Assembly: GCA_021731295.1 (NCBI GenBank)
Contig: JAKFXQ010000003.1
Location: forward strand, 1 to 35,408
Origin: Patescibacteria group bacterium
Lineage (GTDB): Bacteria > Patescibacteriota > Minisyncoccia > Phycocordibacterales > UBA2100
Direction: 5' to 3'
DNA: 35,408 nt
Position numbers and translations under genes: made by a program. The notes below the pieces were generated by a model. That model worked only from the letters and a program-made list of their open reading frames with translations, was not told the DNA's origin and did not search any database. Positions within the stretch are counted from its first letter, which is position 1, and each line of letters starts with the position of its first letter. Below, one piece after another: positions 5,226-34,071 of the stretch.

Positions 5226-6680
5226 ATGGCCAAGACCATCCTCGTAACGGGCGGCGCTGGATTCGTTGGTTCACACCTGTGCCGACGCCTTTTGGAAGAG
5301 GGAAACCGTGTCATTTCGCTCGACAACTACTTTGCTGGTTCTCGCGGCAACGACGTTCCCGGGGTCGAGTGTCGAGACGGACACACGAAAGATATCGCGA
5401 CCTTCGTGCCGGAAAAGCCAGACATCATCTTCCATCTCGGCGAATACGCGCGCGTTGAACAGAGCGTGCTGGAGCCGGATGTTGTCCATGACCTAAACGT
5501 TGTTGGTACGGCGGCGGTCATCGAATACTGGCGTTCGCGCAACGCGGAAGGTTATGTATGCAAACTCATCTACGCAGGCTCTTCGACTAAATTTGGCGAT
5601 GGGGGAATGACGCCGCAGACATCGCCGTATGCTGCAACGAAAGCAGCGAATACTATCAAAGTGCGCGACATCGGAGAGCGTGAGCACTTGCCATACGCCG
5701 TCACGTATTTTTATAACGTTTATGGCCCGGGAGAGCGTGCAGGCATCTATGGCACGGTTATTGAATGGTTTAAGGAAATGCACGTGCGAGGCGAGCCGCT
5801 GACCGTGGTTTCTCCCGGAACGCAACAGCGCAACTTCACGCACGTGTTCGACATAGTGGACGCCCTCATGGTGGTCGGTGAAAAGGGAAAGGGGGATGAG
5901 TTTGGGATTGGTGCCGAGCGCGCGTACACCATGCTCGAAGTCGCGCACCTCTTCGGCGGCGAGGTGGTGATGTTGCCGTCGCGCCCGAGCAATCGTATGA
6001 CCTCGGCCTTGCATACAGAGAAGACACGCGCGCTGGGGTGGGAGCCAATGCGCGACTTGGCTTCGTATATTCGCGAATTTGTTGCGGCGCATCCACGTGG
6101 GGAGCAGCGAGAACAGCGGGTGCTCGTTCTTTCTACGAGCTTCTTCCCGACAGAAGGCCCTGCAGAGCGCGCGCTCCGCAAACTCGCTGAAGCACTGCCC
6201 GATGTACAGTTTGATGTCGTCGCAGGGAAGTTTACGGACGACGAGGTCACAGGATTACCGAAAAACATTACGCTTCACGCCGTCGGCATGGGACACTCGC
6301 TCGATAAGTTCCTGCTGCCAATACTCGGATTCCATGCTGCGTACGTATTGCATCGCGAACATCGTTATCTGTTTGCGTGGTCCTTGATGGCGAGTTATGC
6401 CGCGCTTGCTGGCGTCATGCTGAAATATGTTTCGTCGCTTCCACTCCTCATTACCTTTGCTGACCAGAACTTTGAGAAATATGGATTCATAAAACGCGTG
6501 TTTCTCGACCATGTGGTACGAGAGGCGACGCAAGTCTACGGCCTCGGCAATCAGGAAGCGCGCGCGGCACATGTGCGTCGCGGCAAACCACTGCGACAGA
6601 CGTTGGGAGAAGGGGACGCGTTTGCGAATCAGTTGCGCTACGCGTATGCGCAGACCGTTGAGGGAGAGCGCTCTCTGTAG
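5226..6680 (+). CDS. Fusion: NAD-dependent epimerase/dehydratase (extended SDR) plus GT-B N-terminal-like domain
   Basis: Residues 1 to about 292 form an extended SDR nucleotide-sugar epimerase/dehydratase. The NAD-binding TGGAGFVGSH is at 8-17, the Tyr135-x3-Lys139 catalytic pair sits in SPYAATK, and a YNVYGPGER motif is present. From about residue 299 a second domain begins with VLVLSTSFFPTEGPAERALRKL, the typical opening strand and helix of a GT4 glycosyltransferase. It runs to residue 484 and ends without the nucleotide-sugar-binding C-terminal Rossmann domain (no E-x7-E motif). The protein is therefore a complete SDR joined to half a GT-B enzyme. The stop is clean and the next gene is convergent, so no downstream fragment completes the transferase. 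The likely reaction is UDP- or GDP-sugar epimerisation; the exact sugar cannot be told. Confidence 0.8.
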   Translation: MAKTILVTGGAGFVGSHLCRRLLEEGNRVISLDNYFAGSRGNDVPGVECRDGHTKDIATFVPEKPDIIFHLGEYARVEQSVLEPDVVHDLNVVGTAAVIEYWRSRNAEGYVCKLIYAGSSTKFGDGGMTPQTSPYAATKAANTIKVRDIGEREHLPYAVTYFYNVYGPGERAGIYGTVIEWFKEMHVRGEPLTVVSPGTQQRNFTHVFDIVDALMVVGEKGKGDEFGIGAERAYTMLEVAHLFGGEVVMLPSRPSNRMTSALHTEKTRALGWEPMRDLASYIREFVAAHPRGEQREQRVLVLSTSFFPTEGPAERALRKLAEALPDVQFDVVAGKFTDDEVTGLPKNITLHAVGMGHSLDKFLLPILGFHAAYVLHREHRYLFAWSLMASYAALAGVMLKYVSSLPLLITFADQNFEKYGFIKRVFLDHVVREATQVYGLGNQEARAAHVRRGKPLRQTLGEGDAFANQLRYAYAQTVEGERSL

Positions 6681-10846: not shown

Positions 10847-12805
10847 ATGCGCATACTCGTCTTTGGAACCGACTGGAACGTCTTCAACGCGGACAGTGCC
10901 GTGGCACGTCGTCAGCGCATGCAGGCCTCCACTGTGGATAGGCTCGACGTCTTCGTCCCGCATGGACCGCGCCAGAGCATGCAGCTTGCGGGGAATGCGA
11001 CGATGCACGGGTTTGGCCCGGGCAAGCTCTTCGGTGCCGCGCGTGCGTTTGTTGCCGCATTCTCGCTCGAGCGTCCTGATGTCATTTCCGCTCAGGACCC
11101 GTTTCTTATAGGCCTCTTGGCGTTCACTGTCGCGAGACTACGCGGCTGCCGCCTCCATATTCAGCTGCATACTGACGTCTTCGACCCAGCGTTTGCGGGG
11201 CACTCGACGGGGAACAGACTCCGTTCGTTCCTCGCGCGGCTCTTGTTGCCACGTGCAGATTCGGTGCGTGTGGTGTCGGAGCGCGTAAAGCGTTCGCTTG
11301 CGGCGCGAGGCATAACACACAATGTCGCCGTCTTGCCGGTGTTTGTTGAGACTGATGCACTGGATCACGCCGCACCGCTCGATCGTTCTCGTACGTACCC
11401 GCAATTCACCAAGTTGGTTCTGGTTGTCGCGCGTTTCGAGCCGGAAAAGAATGTGGCCGCCGCAATTCGCGCGTTCGCGGAAATAAAAAAGACGCACGAA
11501 GGTGCAGGACTCATATTGCTGGGCGATGGTTCCGAGCGACGCAGTCTCGAATCTCTGGTCGGGCAACTCGGGCTGCGCGACGCGGTCGTCTTTGCCGGAT
11601 TTCAGAATCCGTACGCGCACTACAAAGCGGCGGATCTTGTACTGGTTACATCCGACTTTGAAGGGTACGGCATGGTCGTCATCGAAGCGCTCTACGTCGG
11701 GTGCCCCGTGGTTTCGTTTGACGTCGGCATTTCGGCGGAAGCGGGTGCCATCATCGCGACACCGGAAACGCTCGCGCGAACGGCAATTGCCGTTCTCTCT
11801 GAAGGCAAGCGTGGCCGTCTGACACTTTCGCTCCCGTCTGAAATCGAGTACCGCGACATGTGGCGCGCGGAAATAGGAACAAGCATTGCGGAGACACGCG
11901 TGACGCCCGCTCGTGGTACGCGTGCAAAAATTGGGTACGTCGGCCAAGGATTCATCGGACGCAACTACGCCGACGATTTAGAGCGTCGTGGGTTTGAAGT
12001 CATTCGCTACGCGCTCGAAGAACCGTACGTGCACAACAAAGACCGCATCAAAGAGTGTGACATCGTGTTCGTCGCAGTGCCGACGCCGACGACGCCGAAC
12101 GGATTCGACTATTCAATCGTGAAGAGCGCGCTCGGGCTCATCGGCGAAGGGAAGACAGCAATCGTAAAATCCACGGTGCTCCCCGGCACAACGGTCGAAC
12201 TGCAGAAGGAATTTCCATCAATCCACGTATTCCACTCCCCAGAATTTCTGCGCGAGGCGACGGCGGCGTATGACGCCGCGCATCCGGACAGAACGATTAT
12301 CGGTATTCCTAACGACACGCCGGATAATCGTGCACGCGCTCGCGCGGTGATAGATGTCTTGCCACCTGCGCCGTTTGAAATGATTTGCACGTCGCTCGAA
12401 GCAGAGCTCATCAAGTACGCGGGCAATAACTGGCTGTTCATCAAAGTCGTCTACACGAATCTTTTGTATGACCTCGCACAGAAATTGGGCGCCGATTATG
12501 ACTCCGTGCGCGACGGCCTCGCCGCAGACCCCCGCATTGGCCGCTCGCACCTCGACCCGGTGCATCAAAGCGGGCATGGTGGCACACCCGGGCGCGGCGC
12601 GGGCGGGCACTGCTTCATCAAAGATTTCGAAGCGTTCCGCCGCATGTACGCATCTGAACTGCACGATGCACATGGCATGCGCGTGTTAGACGCGCTCGCG
12701 GCCAAGAACATCCAACTTCTCCATGACAGCGGCAAAGATTTAGAACTTCTCACAGGAGTCTACGGAGACCCGAAGGAAGCAATGAAACGACTTGGCGATA
12801 TATGA
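10847..12805 (+). CDS. Fusion: GT4 glycosyltransferase plus UDP-glucose/GDP-mannose dehydrogenase-like domain
   Basis: Residues 1 to about 350 form a GT4 enzyme (VLVVARFEPEKNVAAAIRAF, LLGDGSERRS, E-x7-E at Glu272/Glu280 in EGYGMVVIEALYVG). Residues about 361-652 form a UDP-sugar 6-dehydrogenase-like module. It has the Rossmann GYVGQGFIG at 363-371, FVAVPTPTTPNGFDY, VKSTVLPGTT, SPEFLREATA, Lys523 in AELIKYAGNN, and the catalytic-position Cys589 in GAGGHCFIKD. The family's usual C-terminal UDP-binding domain (PF03720) is missing: the dehydrogenase part is only about 290 residues. The core oxidation residues are kept, so activity as a uronate-forming enzyme is plausible but unproven. The stop overlaps the next ATG by 4 nt (ATGA), indicating translational coupling. 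Confidence 0.85.
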   Translation: MRILVFGTDWNVFNADSAVARRQRMQASTVDRLDVFVPHGPRQSMQLAGNATMHGFGPGKLFGAARAFVAAFSLERPDVISAQDPFLIGLLAFTVARLRGCRLHIQLHTDVFDPAFAGHSTGNRLRSFLARLLLPRADSVRVVSERVKRSLAARGITHNVAVLPVFVETDALDHAAPLDRSRTYPQFTKLVLVVARFEPEKNVAAAIRAFAEIKKTHEGAGLILLGDGSERRSLESLVGQLGLRDAVVFAGFQNPYAHYKAADLVLVTSDFEGYGMVVIEALYVGCPVVSFDVGISAEAGAIIATPETLARTAIAVLSEGKRGRLTLSLPSEIEYRDMWRAEIGTSIAETRVTPARGTRAKIGYVGQGFIGRNYADDLERRGFEVIRYALEEPYVHNKDRIKECDIVFVAVPTPTTPNGFDYSIVKSALGLIGEGKTAIVKSTVLPGTTVELQKEFPSIHVFHSPEFLREATAAYDAAHPDRTIIGIPNDTPDNRARARAVIDVLPPAPFEMICTSLEAELIKYAGNNWLFIKVVYTNLLYDLAQKLGADYDSVRDGLAADPRIGRSHLDPVHQSGHGGTPGRGAGGHCFIKDFEAFRRMYASELHDAHGMRVLDALAAKNIQLLHDSGKDLELLTGVYGDPKEAMKRLGDI

Positions 12806-27337: not shown

Positions 27338-28765
27338 ATGCTTCGCATGCAGAGGACGATATTCATCAGTATCTATGATGGTGACACGGAGAAAAATATC
27401 TTGCGCTCCGGCATCCTCCCGCGCCTCAAGCAGGCAGGGCATCGCATAGTGTTGCTGATACGCGGCAAGGCTCGACTTGAACACTACAAGACGAATTTTG
27501 CTGACGAAACTACTGTTGTGGAGCTATTGCCATATGCAACGACGTTTGCCGAGCATATTTGGTTCCATCTGAGTTGGAATTCTGTTCCTACGCACTCCGT
27601 GTATCTTCGTAGACGAATGCGGTTCGAGATGCACCGGCGATACATACGATATGCGTTGGAGTCTCTCGCTTGGTTCCTCGCCCGTTTCCGTCTCTGGCGC
27701 GCGTTTCTCCGACGTATCTATTTTGTCGTCCCTGACGACTACGGCGGATATCTGTTCGACACATATAAACCTGACCTGCTCTTCGCTCCAAATATGTTCT
27801 CTCCGGAAGATTTCCGACTCATGCGTAACGCAAAGAAGCGCGGAATCAGGACGCTCGCTACAGCGAAGAGTTGGGACGTACTTACGACGAAAGCTTTTAC
27901 GCGAGTGAAAGCAGACAGACTACTCGTGTTCAATGAATTCAATCGCCGGGAAGCGATTTCTCTCGGAGACTACAACGCTGAACAAGTGGTTATTACCGGG
28001 TTTCCGCAATTTGACGTGTATGTAAACGGGGGTGTAGGTGCTGAACGTTCCGCATTCTTTACCAAACTCGGTCTCGATCCAGAAAAGGCTCTCATTTTCT
28101 TCTCGATACCAGGTGATTGGAAAACGCCGCACACGAAAGATATTCTTGTAGAATTGAGCAAGCGAATAGACGATGGCAGATTTGTTCGCCCGATACAGAT
28201 ACTCGCTCAGATTCATCCAAAATATCCTTCGAACTGTGAGGGATTGTCGATTCCGCACGTCCACATTCGTCGCCCAGGCACCCTGCTTGCGACGCGGAGG
28301 GAGACATCAATCGACATGGGAATTGCTGGTTCCTACGCCTTTACCTTCACTGATAAGGATGTTGCAGAGTTATATGACGTGGTCCGACATAGTGAAATCT
28401 GCATCAACATTGAATCCACACTCACGCTTGATGCTGCGGCGGCCGGGAAGCCCTCAATTCTTATCGGATATGACGGCAATCAAAAGGTATCGTACTGGCG
28501 TTCTGTGGCACGACTGTACGAACGCGATCACTATCAAAATGTTGTACGCACTGGCGGGGCTCCGCTCGTTATGAGTCATGATGAACTCGAGAAGGAAATC
28601 AACGCCTTTCTTGCAGATCCAGCATATCTCCGACGCGAACGAGAAAATCTAGAGAGGGACCTGCTTTATCGCAGGGATGGTCGCTCTAGCGAGAGGGTCG
28701 CCACGGCGGTACTCGCCATGCTCGAGGAGTCCCTTGACCGAACGCATCCTATACGTGATGAATAA
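27338..28765 (+). CDS. GT-B-fold transferase, CDP-glycerol glycerophosphotransferase/NeuC-like region, function unclear
   Basis: The 475-residue protein (472 from ATG 27347) opens IFISIYDGDTEKNILRSGILPRLKQAGHRIVLL, an N-terminal Rossmann-like strand-helix. The C-terminal half has AQIHPKYPS and YDVVRHSEICINIESTLTLDAAAAGKPSILIGYDG. That resembles the donor-site signature (Ser-rich loop, then KP and a hydrophobic strand) of CDP-glycerol:polyglycerophosphate transferases, NeuC-type epimerases and surface-carbohydrate proteins. I cannot assign one family with confidence. It lies next to a CMP-nonulosonate synthetase-like gene, so a nonulosonate or glycerophosphate transferase is possible. There is no obvious signal peptide or transmembrane segment. 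Confidence 0.6.
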   Translation: MLRMQRTIFISIYDGDTEKNILRSGILPRLKQAGHRIVLLIRGKARLEHYKTNFADETTVVELLPYATTFAEHIWFHLSWNSVPTHSVYLRRRMRFEMHRRYIRYALESLAWFLARFRLWRAFLRRIYFVVPDDYGGYLFDTYKPDLLFAPNMFSPEDFRLMRNAKKRGIRTLATAKSWDVLTTKAFTRVKADRLLVFNEFNRREAISLGDYNAEQVVITGFPQFDVYVNGGVGAERSAFFTKLGLDPEKALIFFSIPGDWKTPHTKDILVELSKRIDDGRFVRPIQILAQIHPKYPSNCEGLSIPHVHIRRPGTLLATRRETSIDMGIAGSYAFTFTDKDVAELYDVVRHSEICINIESTLTLDAAAAGKPSILIGYDGNQKVSYWRSVARLYERDHYQNVVRTGGAPLVMSHDELEKEINAFLADPAYLRRERENLERDLLYRRDGRSSERVATAVLAMLEESLDRTHPIRDE

Positions 28766-28771
28766 GCTATG

Positions 28772-29521
28772 ATGCAGAGCGAGGAACAGGGCAAACGTCT
28801 CGAAATATTAGCGGTCGTCCCAGCCCGTGGCGGTTCTAAGGGAGTACCGCGCAAGAACATTCGCGCACTACTCGGCAAACCGCTCTTGTACTGGATTCAT
28901 GCGGCAGCAAAGGAGGCGAAACATGTAACGCGTGTGATTGTCGCGACTGACGACGAGGAAATTGCGACCATAGCTAAGAGTGTTGGCGCCGATGTTCCGT
29001 ATATACAGCCCCCTGAGGTGTCGCATGACCTAGCAACTGATGTCGAATATCTGACGTACGCACTTGAGACATTGGCGCGACAAGAGGGATACGAGCCCGA
29101 CATTATTCTGCGTTTACCTCCCACGTCACCACTATGCACAGCGGCGCATATCGACACGGGTATCGAGACATTGCTTGCGGACCCGGAACTTGATGCGGTT
29201 CGTCCGATTGTTGAGACGCCAAAGCATCCGTACAAATTTTGGAAAATACACGAGAACCAGAAACACCTTGAGCCGTTTTTGCCGAAATCATTCACTGGGT
29301 TCGATGAGCCTCATAATCTGCAGCGACAACGATTTCCTAAAGTTTATATGCATACAGGGGCGATGGATGTTATCCGACGTGCAACATTACTGGAGCAGAA
29401 ATCAACGTCAGGAAAGCGGCTGGGATTCTTCCACATGTCCCCAGAAGACAGCATCAACATAGACCATCCGCTTGATTTCGAGATTGCAGATATTCTCATG
29501 CGCAAACGCCTTGGTATGTAA
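28772..29521 (+). CDS. CMP-nonulosonate (acylneuraminate) cytidylyltransferase-like protein
   Basis: The 249-residue protein opens with AVVPARGGSKGVPRKNIRAL, the CTP-binding glycine-rich loop of the NeuA/PseF/LegF family. It continues with VIVATDDEEIATIAKSVGA, ILRLPPTSPLCTAAHIDTGI and a C-terminal INIDHPLDFEIADILM. The family activates sialic acid, pseudaminic acid or legionaminic acid as CMP-sugars for transfer. The presence of a NeuB-like gene at 30762 supports a nonulosonate pathway. ATG 28772 follows an alternative ATG at 28769; both are in frame and no Shine-Dalgarno decides between them. It ends just before a strong convergent terminator. Confidence 0.85.
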   Translation: MQSEEQGKRLEILAVVPARGGSKGVPRKNIRALLGKPLLYWIHAAAKEAKHVTRVIVATDDEEIATIAKSVGADVPYIQPPEVSHDLATDVEYLTYALETLARQEGYEPDIILRLPPTSPLCTAAHIDTGIETLLADPELDAVRPIVETPKHPYKFWKIHENQKHLEPFLPKSFTGFDEPHNLQRQRFPKVYMHTGAMDVIRRATLLEQKSTSGKRLGFFHMSPEDSINIDHPLDFEIADILMRKRLGM

Positions 29522-29580: not shown

Positions 29581-30654
29581 TCACGCGAGAATGATGTCAG
29601 CCATCCGTCTCGCTGCTTCGCCCTTCGTGAGGCGAGGATATACACGTTGTGCGGCGGCGCGCTTCTGGTCGACATGAGCACGAGGGACATCAAGGCCAAG
29701 CCGACTTTCGATGAGGTCGCGGAAATGCTGACCGAGCGTGATACTGGACCCAGACTCGAACGCGCCGCCACCATCGGCAAGAGGCGTATGTGCAGCAGAG
29801 ATTTCTTGGTGAAGCCACTGTTGCATAAACGCGCCCTGCGTATGGTCGACAACAGGGATACCGAGACATGCGGCACGTCGAGCGAGTGATGCAGGACCAC
29901 TGTGCATGAGCGCATCGCAACCTTCGACACCGAGCTCGCCGCCGACGAGATACTCCGTTCTGATGCCAGCAGCGTTGCCGAACTTCAGGAGCGGAGCGTA
30001 GATCCCGTCAACTGTCTCGTCGCGCGGATGACAAGCAAGCAAGAGCACTGGCACATACGCGTATGCCAGTACACTCGCCGCAGCATCGATTGCGTCGCGC
30101 GCGAGGGCGAGGTTGACGGCGGTGGTCTTCGTCATCGAGACGAGGATTGCGAAGTCGCTTTCCTTGAGACCGAGCGCAGCTCTCGCACTTGCCCTGTCGC
30201 CGGAACGATAGTCATCCTCCCAGAGCGGATTTCCGGTAGCGTGTGCGCCGCGAGGGAAGGATGTTCTAGCCCGCCGTGCCTCCGCTTCATTCACGACAAA
30301 CGCTTGCGCGTTGTCGCGGAACGCTCGGACTTGTTCCCGGTCCCATGCGCCGAATGTATCGGCGAAATAGAACAGGGGAGTGGCGTGTCGGTCGAGCGCG
30401 AGCGTCGCAGCATTCATCTCGAGCGCACAGTGCGGTTGAGATGAGATGCCGCATACGACAGCTCGACTTGCTCGAATGCTCCGGTCCATGACTTCTTGCC
30501 ACGAGTACGGACTTGGCGCATCGCGCTTACTGCCGTCCATGAGGATGGCGTGAACACGTTCACCGCGAGACTCGAGTTCGTCCTCGAGCGCGGCGAGAGC
30601 GCGTGACGGGGCGATGTCGTAGGCGACCAATGTTACGTCGCTTCGTCTGGCCAT
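29581..30654 (-). CDS. Uncharacterised GT-B-like protein (epimerase- or hydrolase-like fold)
   Basis: The 357-residue protein starts DVTLVAYDIAPSRALAALEDELESRG. It has HATGNPLWEDD (LpxB/WecB-like GNP turn), AILVSMTKTTAVNLALARDAI, LLLACHPRDE and ALMHSGPASLARRAACLGIPVVDHTQG. The last is the donor-loop pattern of GT-B enzymes such as LpxB, NeuC or PseG. The family-defining residues of hydrolysing UDP-GlcNAc 2-epimerases (NeuC) are not visible, so its function is open. Its position between NeuA- and NeuB-like genes makes a nonulosonate role attractive: a precursor step, or transfer of the CMP-sugar. ATG 30654 is preceded by AGAGGAG at 8 nt, so this gene has a true leader. Confidence 0.6.
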   Translation of the reverse strand: MARRSDVTLVAYDIAPSRALAALEDELESRGERVHAILMDGSKRDAPSPYSWQEVMDRSIRASRAVVCGISSQPHCALEMNAATLALDRHATPLFYFADTFGAWDREQVRAFRDNAQAFVVNEAEARRARTSFPRGAHATGNPLWEDDYRSGDRASARAALGLKESDFAILVSMTKTTAVNLALARDAIDAAASVLAYAYVPVLLLACHPRDETVDGIYAPLLKFGNAAGIRTEYLVGGELGVEGCDALMHSGPASLARRAACLGIPVVDHTQGAFMQQWLHQEISAAHTPLADGGGAFESGSSITLGQHFRDLIESRLGLDVPRAHVDQKRAAAQRVYPRLTKGEAARRMADIILA

Positions 30655-30694
30655 CGTGTTGACTCCTCTGTGAGTGTTGAGAACGGCCAAAGCG

Positions 30695-30723: not shown

Positions 30724-30754
30724 TTGACCTTTGATTCAAAAATTGTGTCAATAT
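30724..30754 (+). promoter_or_regulatory. Possible promoter TTGACC ... CAATAT, 7 nt before ATG 30762
   Basis: TTGACC (30724-30729) is followed after a long 19-bp spacer by CAATAT (30749-30754), then 7 nt to the ATG. The core around the -10 is nearly the same as before the gene at 7427 (GTGTCAA-C/T-ATGGGG). Confidence 0.3.
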
Positions 30755-30761
30755 GGGGTAT

Positions 30762-32306
30762 ATGTCACCAACAAACAAGTTCGACTTTACCGACCTCTTT
30801 ACGCTCGAGATGGCAAACAATCATCAGGGCTCTGTAGATCATGGACTCAAGATAATCAGCGAGTGCGGCAAGGTCGTGAAAGAGCACGGAGTACGGGCTG
30901 CGATGAAGTTGCAGTTTCGCGACCTCGATACATTCATACATCCCGCAGATAAGAAGAAGTCGGACAACAAGCATGTCGCTCGATTCCAGTCGACAAAGCT
31001 CGCAAAGAAGGATTTCAAAATTCTTGTTGACGCGGTGCGCAAAGCGGGAATGGTGACCATGGCGACGCCGTTCGACGAAGCGTCTGTCGAACTCTTGAAG
31101 GAGCTGAACATCGATATTCTGAAAATCGCGTCCTGTTCAGCGAAGGATTGGCCGCTTCTTGAGAAAGCAGTCTCCGCAGGCAAGCCCATTATCGTGTCCG
31201 TCGGAGGCATGACAATCGACGAAACGGACCGCCTCGTGAGCTTCCTCGATCATCGCTACGCTCATTTCGCGCTGATGCACTGCGTTGCGATATATCCGAC
31301 ACCGAACGAGAAACTCAATCTTGGTTACATTGAAGTCCTACGCAAACGCTATCCCGGAGTAACTATCGGTTTCTCGACACACGAGGAGCCAGAGAATATG
31401 TCCGCTATTCAGGTCGCCTATGCGAAGGGCGCGCGCATCTTTGAGCGTCATGTGGGAGTAGCGACGAAGACGATTTCCCTGAATGCATACTCATCTACGC
31501 CAGAACAACTCTCACGTTGGATTTCAGCGTGGAAGGCTGCAAAGGCTGCAGACGGTGCAGGTGATCGCGAGATTGACCCAAGAGAGCTTGCGGATTTGAA
31601 CTCATTGAAGCGTGGTGTATTTGCAAAGAAACCTATCAAGAAGGGGGCCCAGATAAAGCGTTCTGATGTCTACTTTGCATTCCCATACCGTCCGGGCCAG
31701 CTCTCCAGTGGTGATTTCCGCGACGGTTTCGTCACGGCCGATCGTAGCTACAAGACTGATGAGCCAGTTGCCCACGAGACACGTGACTTCGCGCCGACAG
31801 TCCGCGACCTCGTCTATCATCCTATCCACGAGGTGAAGGCGATGCTGAATATGGCTGGTATCGCACTCCCGATGGACTTTGCTCTAGAGATTTCACACCA
31901 TTACGGGCTCGAGAACTTCCGCAAAGTCGGCGTCGTGATTATCGACTGCATCAATCGCGAATACTGCAAGAAGATTCTGGTACAGCTTCCGGGCCAGGAG
32001 CATCCATATCACCACCACCTACAGAAAGAAGAAGCATTCCACGTGCTTTGGGGTGTACTTGAAATAGACTTAGAAGGTCGTCGGATGACACTACGCGCTG
32101 GTGACATAGCGGTCGTGCCTCGCGGGGTGAAGCATCGATTCTGGTCTGAAAGCGGAGTCATCTTCGAAGAAGTATCGTCTACTCACTTCAACAATGACTC
32201 CTTCTATGAGGACCCAGGTATCAATCTCCTTCCAAGGGAAGCTCGCAAGACCAAGCTCGCCAACTGGGGCCGGCACCACTTTGACGCGGCAGGAAACACT
32301 CGGTAG
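30762..32306 (+). CDS. NeuB-like nonulosonate synthase fused to SAF and cupin domains
   Basis: The 514-residue protein has a NeuB TIM barrel (about residues 1-265) opening with LEMANNHQGS, then ATPFDEASVELL, LMHCVAIYPTPNEKLNLG and FSTHEEPE. The metal-ligand positions His207 and His230 are kept. The usual DH pair after the second His is replaced (SLNAYSSTPEQL). A SAF-type domain (about 290-350) has LKRGVFAKKPIKKGAQI. A cupin follows (about 375-500) with PYHHHLQKEEAF (His417-419) and VKHRFW (His458), a plausible metal site. NeuB enzymes condense phosphoenolpyruvate with a 6-carbon amino sugar. The fused cupin may be an isomerase or epimerase for that sugar (inference). ATG 30753 is an alternative start. 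Confidence 0.82.
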   Translation: MSPTNKFDFTDLFTLEMANNHQGSVDHGLKIISECGKVVKEHGVRAAMKLQFRDLDTFIHPADKKKSDNKHVARFQSTKLAKKDFKILVDAVRKAGMVTMATPFDEASVELLKELNIDILKIASCSAKDWPLLEKAVSAGKPIIVSVGGMTIDETDRLVSFLDHRYAHFALMHCVAIYPTPNEKLNLGYIEVLRKRYPGVTIGFSTHEEPENMSAIQVAYAKGARIFERHVGVATKTISLNAYSSTPEQLSRWISAWKAAKAADGAGDREIDPRELADLNSLKRGVFAKKPIKKGAQIKRSDVYFAFPYRPGQLSSGDFRDGFVTADRSYKTDEPVAHETRDFAPTVRDLVYHPIHEVKAMLNMAGIALPMDFALEISHHYGLENFRKVGVVIIDCINREYCKKILVQLPGQEHPYHHHLQKEEAFHVLWGVLEIDLEGRRMTLRAGDIAVVPRGVKHRFWSESGVIFEEVSSTHFNNDSFYEDPGINLLPREARKTKLANWGRHHFDAAGNTR

Positions 32307-32339: not shown

Positions 32340-32984
32340 ATGAGCATCATCGTCTTTGACTTCGACGGGGTCATCGTCCCCGAATCCGAGGAGTTTAAGA
32401 AGCGCGCGTGGCGAGCACTGTTCTCAAACAGTGTCGAGTACGCGGCGTTCGAGTCGGCAGAAGCAGAGTTAGGTCGCGGTCGCGGAGGAGACCGATTTTC
32501 CATCCTCGAGCGAACATTTGAACTGCTTGGCATTGGTCCCGACCAACGCGCGGCGAAAGTGCAGCAGGCAGCGGCTAGATTCGATGAGCTGGTGCAGAAG
32601 ATGATTGCAGACGCCGGGCTGCCTGTAGAGGTTCGACACCTGTTGTCGGAGCTCGCGACTCGAGGCAATACGCTGTATCTGAATTCGGCGACACCTGCAG
32701 AGGCGCTCAAGCGGACTATAGAGGCGCTGGGAATCGGCAATGTTTTCGCCGCCGTGCTCGGTCGCCCGAACACGAAAGTCGAAAATTTTACGCTGATTGC
32801 GAAGAGAGAGTCAGCCGCGCCAGAAACAGTGGTGTTCGTCGGCGACAGTCCGTCCGATGCTGCTGCTGCAAACGAGTTTGGGTGCCAATTCATTGCATTC
32901 CTAAACGAGTGGAGCGACTGGAAACCCGAAGAAAGCGTGCGCGTCGCCAGGTCGCATTCCGAACTGTTGACGATGCTTTCTTGA
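32340..32984 (+). CDS. HAD-superfamily phosphatase (beta-phosphoglucomutase-like)
   Basis: The 214-residue protein has motif I DFDGVIVP (residues 7-14), motif II NSATPAE, a Lys/Asn motif III (GRPNTKVEN) and motif IV GDSPSDAAAA. A helical cap lies between motifs I and II. It is a phosphatase or phosphomutase. In this setting a nonulosonate-9-phosphate or sugar phosphatase is likely. AGGGAGA lies 8 nt before ATG 32340, so translation relies on Shine-Dalgarno within the operon, in contrast to the leaderless starts around it. It follows the NeuB fusion after 33 nt and ends before a terminator. Confidence 0.85.
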   Translation: MSIIVFDFDGVIVPESEEFKKRAWRALFSNSVEYAAFESAEAELGRGRGGDRFSILERTFELLGIGPDQRAAKVQQAAARFDELVQKMIADAGLPVEVRHLLSELATRGNTLYLNSATPAEALKRTIEALGIGNVFAAVLGRPNTKVENFTLIAKRESAAPETVVFVGDSPSDAAAANEFGCQFIAFLNEWSDWKPEESVRVARSHSELLTMLS

Positions 32985-33036: not shown

Positions 33037-34071
33037 ATGAAAATAAAGATTTACGGAGCAGGTTCAATAGGAAATCATCTGACGCAGGCGGCACGTCGTA
33101 TGGGATGGCATGTGACTGTCGTTGATACGGACCCCAAGGCACTCGAGAGAATGAAGAACGACATCTATCCCACGCGCTACGGGAAGTGGGATGATTCCAT
33201 AGAACTTTGTATCGCGGGGACGGAGAAACGAGGCGGATTCGACATCATTATGATTGGTACGCCACCGCACGTGCGAACTGCAGTTGCCCTCGAAGCGTTA
33301 AAAGAAAAGCCGAAAGCAATAATCCTCGAAAAGCCCGTCTCCTTTCCTTTTGACCCAAAGTTAAAGACACTAGTATCGCGGCTGAAGTCATCACGGACTC
33401 TCGCATTTGTTGGCTATGACCACGCGGTCGCAAAGTCTATCGAGCGCGTTGCAGACATTCTGAAGTCGGGAGTAATTGGCGATGCCCTCACGCTCGATGT
33501 GGAGTTTCGTGAACATTGGGAGGGCATCTTTAAAGCACATCCGTGGCTCTCGGGACCGCAGGATAGTTATCTCGGCTACTGGAAGCGTGGCGGCGGCGCC
33601 TCCGGCGAGCATTCGCATGCGCTTCATCTTGCCCTCTATCTCTCGCGCGTCGCCAAAATAGGTGCATGGAAAGATGTACGTGCGAAATTCCAACACGTGA
33701 AAAAAGGGAAACTCGATTACGATGCCATTGCATCATTCGCCTTCGATACTGACAAAAGCAAGACGGGTCGCGTCATTCAAGATGTGGTTACCAAGCCGAC
33801 TCGCAAATGGGCGCGTATACAGGGCTCGAATGGATTCGTTGAATGGGTGTGCAACGGACATCCGTCCGGCGACGTAGTTCGATATGCAGGGGCAGACAGC
33901 GTTATCGCGGAAGAGATTATCGAGAAGAAACGCCCAGACGACTTTCACGCGGAGATGTTGCATCTGGACGCCGTCTTAAAAAAGAAGATTAAACCTGCGG
34001 CCTCGCCACTCGCATTTGCTTCAGGTGTTGAGGTCCTGCGTATTTTGGAGCGTGCACGCAAGGCGCGCTAG
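33037..34071 (+). CDS. Gfo/Idh/MocA-family oxidoreductase
   Basis: The 344-residue protein opens with KIYGAGSIGNHLTQAARRMG, a dinucleotide-binding loop. It has DIIMIGTPPHVRTAVALEAL and the family signature ILEKPVSFPF (Glu-Lys-Pro), then a C-terminal beta domain with conserved His residues (GGGASGEHSHALHL). These NAD(P)-dependent enzymes oxidise or reduce sugar hydroxyls, often at C3 of UDP-GlcNAc or its derivatives. In a nonulosonate cluster such enzymes act in precursor modification, but the substrate is not readable. It has its own promoter and is followed 28 nt later by a GT47-like gene. Confidence 0.83.
   Translation: MKIKIYGAGSIGNHLTQAARRMGWHVTVVDTDPKALERMKNDIYPTRYGKWDDSIELCIAGTEKRGGFDIIMIGTPPHVRTAVALEALKEKPKAIILEKPVSFPFDPKLKTLVSRLKSSRTLAFVGYDHAVAKSIERVADILKSGVIGDALTLDVEFREHWEGIFKAHPWLSGPQDSYLGYWKRGGGASGEHSHALHLALYLSRVAKIGAWKDVRAKFQHVKKGKLDYDAIASFAFDTDKSKTGRVIQDVVTKPTRKWARIQGSNGFVEWVCNGHPSGDVVRYAGADSVIAEEIIEKKRPDDFHAEMLHLDAVLKKKIKPAASPLAFASGVEVLRILERARKAR

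Follow-up and report, generated by a model that had tools for sequence, protein, structure and literature searches.

The window analyzed here, a 35,408-nucleotide stretch of DNA from a Patescibacteria group bacterium, encodes a 517-residue protein in which a NeuB-type synthase barrel, an SAF domain, and a cupin are joined in one polypeptide. The ingredients of this fusion are ordinary, their combination is unusual, and it is widespread. We consider it probable (roughly 0.6) that the cupin isomerizes a ketose phosphate and that the product would then be condensed with phosphoenolpyruvate (PEP) by the barrel, dephosphorylated by a neighboring HAD protein, and activated with CMP, in a route of the Kdn/Kdo type with a built-in isomerase.

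A synthase barrel, an SAF domain, and a cupin in one open frame

The fusion lies on the forward strand in an open frame from 30753 to 32306, with a first ATG at 30753 and a second one at 30762, the start used in the first-pass annotation. The three-domain architecture claimed in that annotation was confirmed. Pfam recognized the NeuB domain (PF03102; residues 44 to 270, 2.8e-44, 151.8 bits against a cutoff of 22.1) and a Cupin_2 domain (residues 413 to 467, 2.1e-12), with a weaker match to Lyx_isomer (PF07385; 2.6e-5, 24.0 bits, above the cutoff of 20.8). An AlphaFold2 model built on 45 homologues had a mean pLDDT of 92.6 and a pTM of 0.84. As delimited by alignment and by VIA-align comparison with 3g8r and with the NeuB of Neisseria meningitidis (NmNeuB; 1xuu), the PEP-condensing TIM barrel spans approximately residues 14 to 275 (30792 to 31577, forward strand). 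It is followed on the same strand by the SAF, or antifreeze-like, domain at about residues 285 to 346 (31605 to 31790), supported by the model and by alignment with 1xuu and the R314 mutants 4ipi and 4ipj, and by a D-lyxose-isomerase-type cupin at about residues 350 to 512 (31800 to 32288), assigned from phmmer, Foldseek, conservation, and the site residues of the Thermofilum isomerase TsLI. The model aligned with 3g8r over 334 residues (Z score of 38.6, rmsd of 1.5 Å) and with 1xuu across barrel and SAF (Z score of 31.7). Profile and fold both place the fusion in the NeuB superfamily. Full-length homologues with 52 to 65% identity are present in other genomes, indicating that the architecture is not a chance feature.

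The fusions form a clade spread across many phyla

A FastTree phylogeny of barrel plus SAF, which compared NeuB, PseI, and other synthases and included no labeled LegI or SpsE, gathered 89 nonredundant NeuB-SAF-cupin fusions and 3g8r in one clade with no outsider (support of 0.93, stem of 1.1). The altered barrel motif is a signature of this clade, which lies outside the NeuB, PseI, and other synthases compared. The same separation was seen in profile scores, with 103 fusions at 470 to 815 bits and everything else at 303 or below. Placement inside a characterized NeuB clade where the fusion is already known, an outcome the first-pass annotation had allowed for, was not what we observed; the clade is uncharacterized, and the barrel of one member is in the PDB. 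This member, 3g8r, a structural genomics entry from Chromobacterium violaceum named "spore coat polysaccharide biosynthesis protein E," is the nearest solved structure (6.2e-84 to 1.6e-83). It shares with the fusion the clade (support of 0.93 and 0.997), the EMANNH and S-T-H-E signatures, and 42% identity over barrel and SAF, but its solved 350-residue chain lacks a cupin. The SpsE structure 1vli was a weaker match to the fusion than 3g8r (1.2e-20 versus 6.2e-84).

Scanning 84,980 species genomes yielded 183 stretches encoding relatives in genome contigs, and the idea that the fusion is unique to the window genome was rejected. The best 80 of these 183, nearly all of them full-length fusions, came from Patescibacteria, Alpha-, Gamma-, and Deltaproteobacteria, Bacteroidota, Verrucomicrobia, Myxococcota, Acidobacteria, Chloroflexi, Gemmatimonadales, and Lachnospiraceae. 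The fusion was found in 5 of 198 Bacteroidia genomes, in 5 of 287 genomes of the window's own phylum, and in two genomes (G000 and G027) of the sample from its own genus, a sparse distribution that suggests horizontal spread. Searches of plasmids and phages gave no full-length match to the fusion, and cargo of either kind was set aside. Four contigs of the viral collection (L112 to L115) encode relatives of the fusion.

The barrel keeps its metal and PEP residues and replaces Arg314, which places the N-acetyl group in NmNeuB

The barrel retains K52, Q54, T105, K124, S127, Y181, S208, H210, E231, and H233, and the PEP and metal residues of NmNeuB kept in the fusion are K53, Q55, T110, K129, S132, Y186, S213, H215, and H236. 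All of the latter except T110 are among the residues shared with both NeuB (1xuu) and the PseI of Campylobacter jejuni (8h2c), which also have the barrel and SAF fold. The two metal-position histidines that had been described as conserved are indeed present, H210 and H233 aligning with H215 and H236 of NmNeuB. The reported replacement of a DH pair holds in essence; the Asp is changed (GxSDHT to GFSTHE), but the His is retained and is the metal ligand itself.

Unlike NeuB and PseI, the fusion carries an extra cupin and has replaced E134, D214, T216, and R314, with D247 replaced or shifted. Relative to NmNeuB, E134 is S129, D214 is T209, T216 is E211, and H57 is R56 in the window protein. Across the fusions, the position of E134 is Ser in 88 of 88, that of T216 is Glu in 89 of 89, and that of D214 is Thr, Gly, or Ala. 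The position of D247 is not Asp in the window protein, being N244 (HMMER) or L243 (MAFFT) in an alignment uncertain by one residue. The Arg314 position is F310 in the window protein and holds Met in 67, Phe in 13, and Ile in 9 of the 89 fusions. According to Joseph et al., as relayed in PMC6795526, Arg314 of NmNeuB touches ManNAc and positions the N-acetyl group of this sugar, and the R314A variant is inactive.

In every fusion in which NmNeuB position 57 was aligned (88 of 88), this position, which lies four residues beyond the catalytic Lys (K-x-Q-x-R), is an Arg. Among 59 non-cupin synthases scored, 15 had only Arg57, 39 only Arg314, 5 neither, and none both. The equivalent loop of DAHP and KDO8P synthases (KPRTS and KANRSS) carries an Arg that binds the sugar phosphate. 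For its part, the human enzyme NANS accepts a phosphosugar and is not known to have an Arg at position 57, so that R57 would not be required for such use. The simplest reading of this split is that Arg57-type synthases would take phosphosugars and Arg314-type synthases free N-acetyl sugars.

The Arg57 set includes Bacteroidia synthases adjoining a KdsC-type phosphatase and a CTP-transferase; beside one of them, the phosphatase (L219) is 65% identical to 3e81. We take 3e81 to be BT1713, the Kdn-9-P phosphatase of Bacteroides thetaiotaomicron. Kdn-9-phosphate synthase condenses PEP with the phosphosugar Man-6-P, and its pathway has been described in B. thetaiotaomicron (PMC6200933). Synthases of the BT1714 type (B. 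thetaiotaomicron, with a homologue in Prymnesium parvum) resemble the fusion in having phosphatase and CMP-transferase partners, and the BT1714-like group, assigned by the neighboring phosphatase and not by the BT1714 sequence, likewise lacks Arg314 and has Arg at position 57. This group differs from the fusion in having no cupin, SDHT in place of S[TG]HE, Thr for Gln55, and a KdsC-type phosphatase, and it scores low against the profile of the fusion clade. Its residue pattern (T55, D134, D214, S314) is not that of the fusion, R57 and the loss of R314 being the only common points. As this group has SDHT, the S[TG]HE motif was rejected as a marker of phosphosugar enzymes, Arg57 fitting better. 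A BT1714-type assignment was also rejected for the KdsC-adjacent SGHE synthases, whose phosphatase is only 40% identical to 3e81, compared with 65% for the SDHT group.

When ten reference loci were scanned, several scored above the NCBIfam cutoffs for NeuB or PseI. The fusion scored 144.3 bits against 399.65 for NeuB/NnaB (TIGR03569) and 128.4 bits against 340.25 for PseI (TIGR03586). Plain NeuB or PseI identity was rejected given these scores, the residues lost, and the position in the tree. By the sequence tests applied, the fusion is not of the NeuB, PseI, or BT1714 type.

Other arrangements of the barrel were also seen. In L008:1387-3687, L011:1-2298, and L016:1375-3666, NeuB-SAF is fused to the end of a UDP-galactopyranose-mutase/flavin amine oxidase-like domain, giving a protein of about 765 residues, with SDHS or SDHT and Gly for Arg314 (for L016, inferred from length and motif). 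In L211:2811-4238, from a Bacteroidia genome, a KdsC-type phosphatase is fused ahead of a NeuB barrel without SAF (475 residues).

The cupin resembles D-lyxose isomerases over its full length

The cupin alone matched the D-lyxose isomerase YdaE of Bacillus subtilis (2y0o) with a phmmer value of 4.2e-8, including parts beyond the core motif, and Foldseek aligned the two over 166 columns of the 171-residue chain (rmsd of 1.8 Å, TMt of 0.71). The best fold matches were the D-lyxose isomerases of B. subtilis, Thermofilum, and E. coli. TsLI binds its sugar through K62, H75, H77, K86, E88, H143, E156, and D163, together with Mn (PMC8378251). By spacing and alignment, the counterparts of the first seven are K407 (conserved in 87 of the 89 fusions), H420 (79), H422 (88), K425 (88), E427 (87), H461 (88), and E473 (88). 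Thus, seven of the eight sugar-contacting residues are conserved, and D482 is the likely counterpart of D163, although the alignment there needs a gap. The HHH...H site noted in the first-pass annotation corresponds to H420-H421-H422 and H461; by comparison with the lyxose isomerases, the metal ligands are predicted to be H420, H422, E427, and H461. Judged from its residues, the pattern is that of a working aldose-ketose isomerase. The proposal that the cupin isomerizes the substrate before condensation is thereby supported, through full-domain homology to D-lyxose isomerases and conserved putative catalytic residues.

A non-catalytic cupin, with a structural, sugar-sensing, or regulatory role and the barrel alone setting the substrate, appears quite improbable to us. 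Many cupins do bind small molecules without catalysis, and H420 is Gln in 9 of the 89 fusions; nevertheless, the four metal ligands, K407, K425, and E473 are kept in 79 to 88 of the 89, which goes beyond what a scaffold would need.

YdaE, TsLI, and EcLI (2y0o, 7nzo-q, and 3kmh) share with the fusion cupin the fold and the metal and catalytic residues. They are stand-alone enzymes acting on free sugars, whereas the fusion cupin is joined to a synthase and is proposed to act on a phosphorylated sugar. To our knowledge, known D-lyxose isomerases work on free sugars and not on phosphates. R498 and K499 do not vary across the 45 aligned sequences and could hold the phosphate of the substrate.

A different isomerase fold was found at the same position. 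In six Arg57-type synthases from Patescibacteria and Bacteroidia (L006:652-2550, L007:1390-3327, L014:622-2550, L015:1285-3186, L029:517-2484, and L143:1456-3348; 630 to 655 residues, with SGHE or SGHD), the SAF domain is followed by a C-terminal xylose-isomerase-like TIM barrel (PF01261), identified by Pfam in five and placed by length, motif, and tree in L015. This recurrence favors a role for the C-terminal domain in preparing the aldose. A HAD neighbor was present in one of seven xylose-isomerase-like fusion loci, suggesting that these fusions, mostly without such a neighbor, may differ in their use of phosphate.

The gene neighborhood encodes a candidate phosphatase and a probable CMP-activating enzyme

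In the window, the fusion is preceded on the same strand by a NeuA/PseF-type, CMP-activating cytidylyltransferase (28769 to 29521; CTP_transf_3, 4.9e-22), whose best PDB matches are NeuA proteins, with one minus-strand gene in between. It is followed, also on the forward strand, by a C1-cap-type HAD phosphatase with DFDGV and GDSPSD motifs (32340 to 32984; Hydrolase, 3.2e-15; HAD_2, 1.1e-11) and then by a Gfo/Idh/MocA-type oxidoreductase recognized by Pfam (33037 to 34071). Ahead of the cytidylyltransferase lies a forward-strand CDP-glycerol-transferase/BFO_1060-like glycosyltransferase (27338 to 28765; PF04464, 3.6e-6; NF046086, 8.5e-14, below cutoff), possibly the transferase of the final product. 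The intervening minus-strand gene (29581 to 30690, 369 residues) has a weak TIR match below cutoff, and no homologue of it was found in related loci. Elsewhere in the window, inspection by eye showed an apparent glycosyltransferase and UDP-glucose dehydrogenase fusion (10847 to 12805) and an apparent NAD-epimerase and glycosyltransferase fusion (5226 to 6680).

In 53 related loci flanked on each side by 4 kb or more, a cytidylyltransferase was found within 8 kb in 48, a Gfo/Idh gene in 31 (always on the same strand), and a related glycosyltransferase in 28. A HAD gene was present in 39 and not seen in 14. The HAD count of 39/53 contrasts with a single same-strand HAD in about 22 control SDH-type loci (Fisher P = 2e-8), a comparison biased toward finding HAD in fusion loci because the HAD search models were built from them. 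The S-T-H-E subclade has a stand-alone C1-type HAD (13 of 23, never fused), whereas the S-G-H-E group has a small HAD domain fused to the C terminus of the cytidylyltransferase (21 of 25, never stand-alone). These two forms are unrelated and split with the tree; we argue that two independent phosphatase solutions mean that a phosphate must be removed. Bacterial routes starting from unphosphorylated sugars need no phosphatase step (PMC6200933). The protein encoded at 32340 to 32984 is proposed to be the phosphatase of a ulosonate phosphate.

These observations bear on the unusual amino sugar suggested by the first-pass annotation as substrate. A nitrogen-containing nonulosonate route, in which the cupin isomerizes such a sugar and the barrel condenses the product, would accord with the NeuA/PseF-like partner and the NeuB superfamily fold, and the substrates of cupin sugar isomerases are incompletely mapped. 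Against it, 89 of 89 fusions lack the Arg that deals with the N-acetyl group, and the conserved nearby HAD phosphatase, together with the Arg57-type loop, points to a phosphosugar. Moreover, lyxose isomerases act on neutral sugars, and neither an aminotransferase, an N-acetyltransferase, nor a UDP-GlcNAc 2-epimerase is prominent among the commonest close neighbors, of which some families were annotated. We regard an amino sugar as very unlikely.

A five-carbon substrate, with the cupin making D-lyxose-5-P (or D-arabinose-5-P) and the barrel a Kdo-like 3-deoxy-octulosonate, is unlikely but more credible. The order isomerase, synthase, HAD, and CMP-transferase mirrors the KdsD-KdsA-KdsC-KdsB series, and the cupin's nearest relatives are D-lyxose isomerases, of which TsLI strongly prefers lyxose over mannose (PMC8378251). 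Nevertheless, the cytidylyltransferase is far closer to NeuA/PseF (2e-26) than to KdsB (about 1e-7), and the barrel falls on the NeuB side of the superfamily and not with KDO8PS (38.6 and 31.7 versus a Z score of about 24).

Some neighborhoods hold further genes. In L032:12149-13427 and L076:8763-9951, a gene pair adjoining the fusion appears by eye DeoC-type aldolase-like and nucleoside deoxyribosyltransferase-like; the L032 copies, the ones scanned, gave no Pfam match. In L092, L099, L104, L108, and similar loci of the Wenzhouxiangella group, the fusion often stands beside PLP-dependent aminotransferase/acyltransferase-like and acyl-AMP-ligase-like genes, a hint that the sugar may ultimately be attached to a lipid there.

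A proposed route from a ketose phosphate to a CMP-activated acid

In the favored ketose phosphate route, the Mn-type cupin would convert a ketose phosphate to an aldose phosphate of lyxo/manno configuration, most likely Fru-6-P to Man-6-P. The barrel, with a divalent metal on H210 and H233 and with R56 holding the phosphate, would condense this aldose phosphate with PEP to a ulosonate phosphate, which would be Kdn-9-P if the aldose is Man-6-P. The neighboring HAD phosphatase would then remove the phosphate, the NeuA-like enzyme would make the CMP-sugar, the Gfo/Idh enzyme may modify the sugar by redox tailoring before transfer, and the glycosyltransferase would use the product in a surface polysaccharide. 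Man-6-P and Kdn-9-P are the leading candidates because lyxose isomerases give the lyxo/manno configuration. Profiles for phosphomannose isomerase (PMI) type I, PMI type II, and bifunctional PGI/PMI had no match in the window's genome (95% complete), which is in line with, and no proof of, a requirement for a dedicated Man-6-P supply. From the presence of the Gfo/Idh gene, the final sugar would seem to be something other than plain Kdn.

The first-pass annotation had raised the possibility of an undescribed nonulosonate route, which this may be. The chemistry resembles the known Kdn and Kdo routes, but a literature search for which most subscription papers were outside reach turned up no account of NeuB fused to a cupin or to a lyxose isomerase. 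More speculatively, and with less likelihood than the general scheme, an undescribed route may span phyla, in which one polypeptide would take a ketose phosphate of central metabolism to a ulosonate phosphate free of nitrogen; cells that lack PMI, such as that of the window genome (roughly 1 Mb), would thereby make a Kdn-like acid, and a dedicated Gfo/Idh enzyme would convert it into a sugar so far undescribed in bacteria. We think this broader picture somewhat doubtful.

Implications for annotation and for the family

Proteins of the fusion clade are likely to carry the plain annotation of sialic acid synthase or N-acetylneuraminate synthase. If our reading is right, such annotation misstates both the substrate (a sugar phosphate with no N-acetyl group) and the product across many phyla, in species that include candidate-phyla bacteria, gut Lachnospiraceae, and Akkermansia-like genomes. 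With the Arg57/Arg314 split, phosphosugar synthases could be told from N-acetyl-sugar synthases by a simple sequence test. Since the isomerase is fused to the synthase, the question of the substrate is directly testable on a single purified protein.
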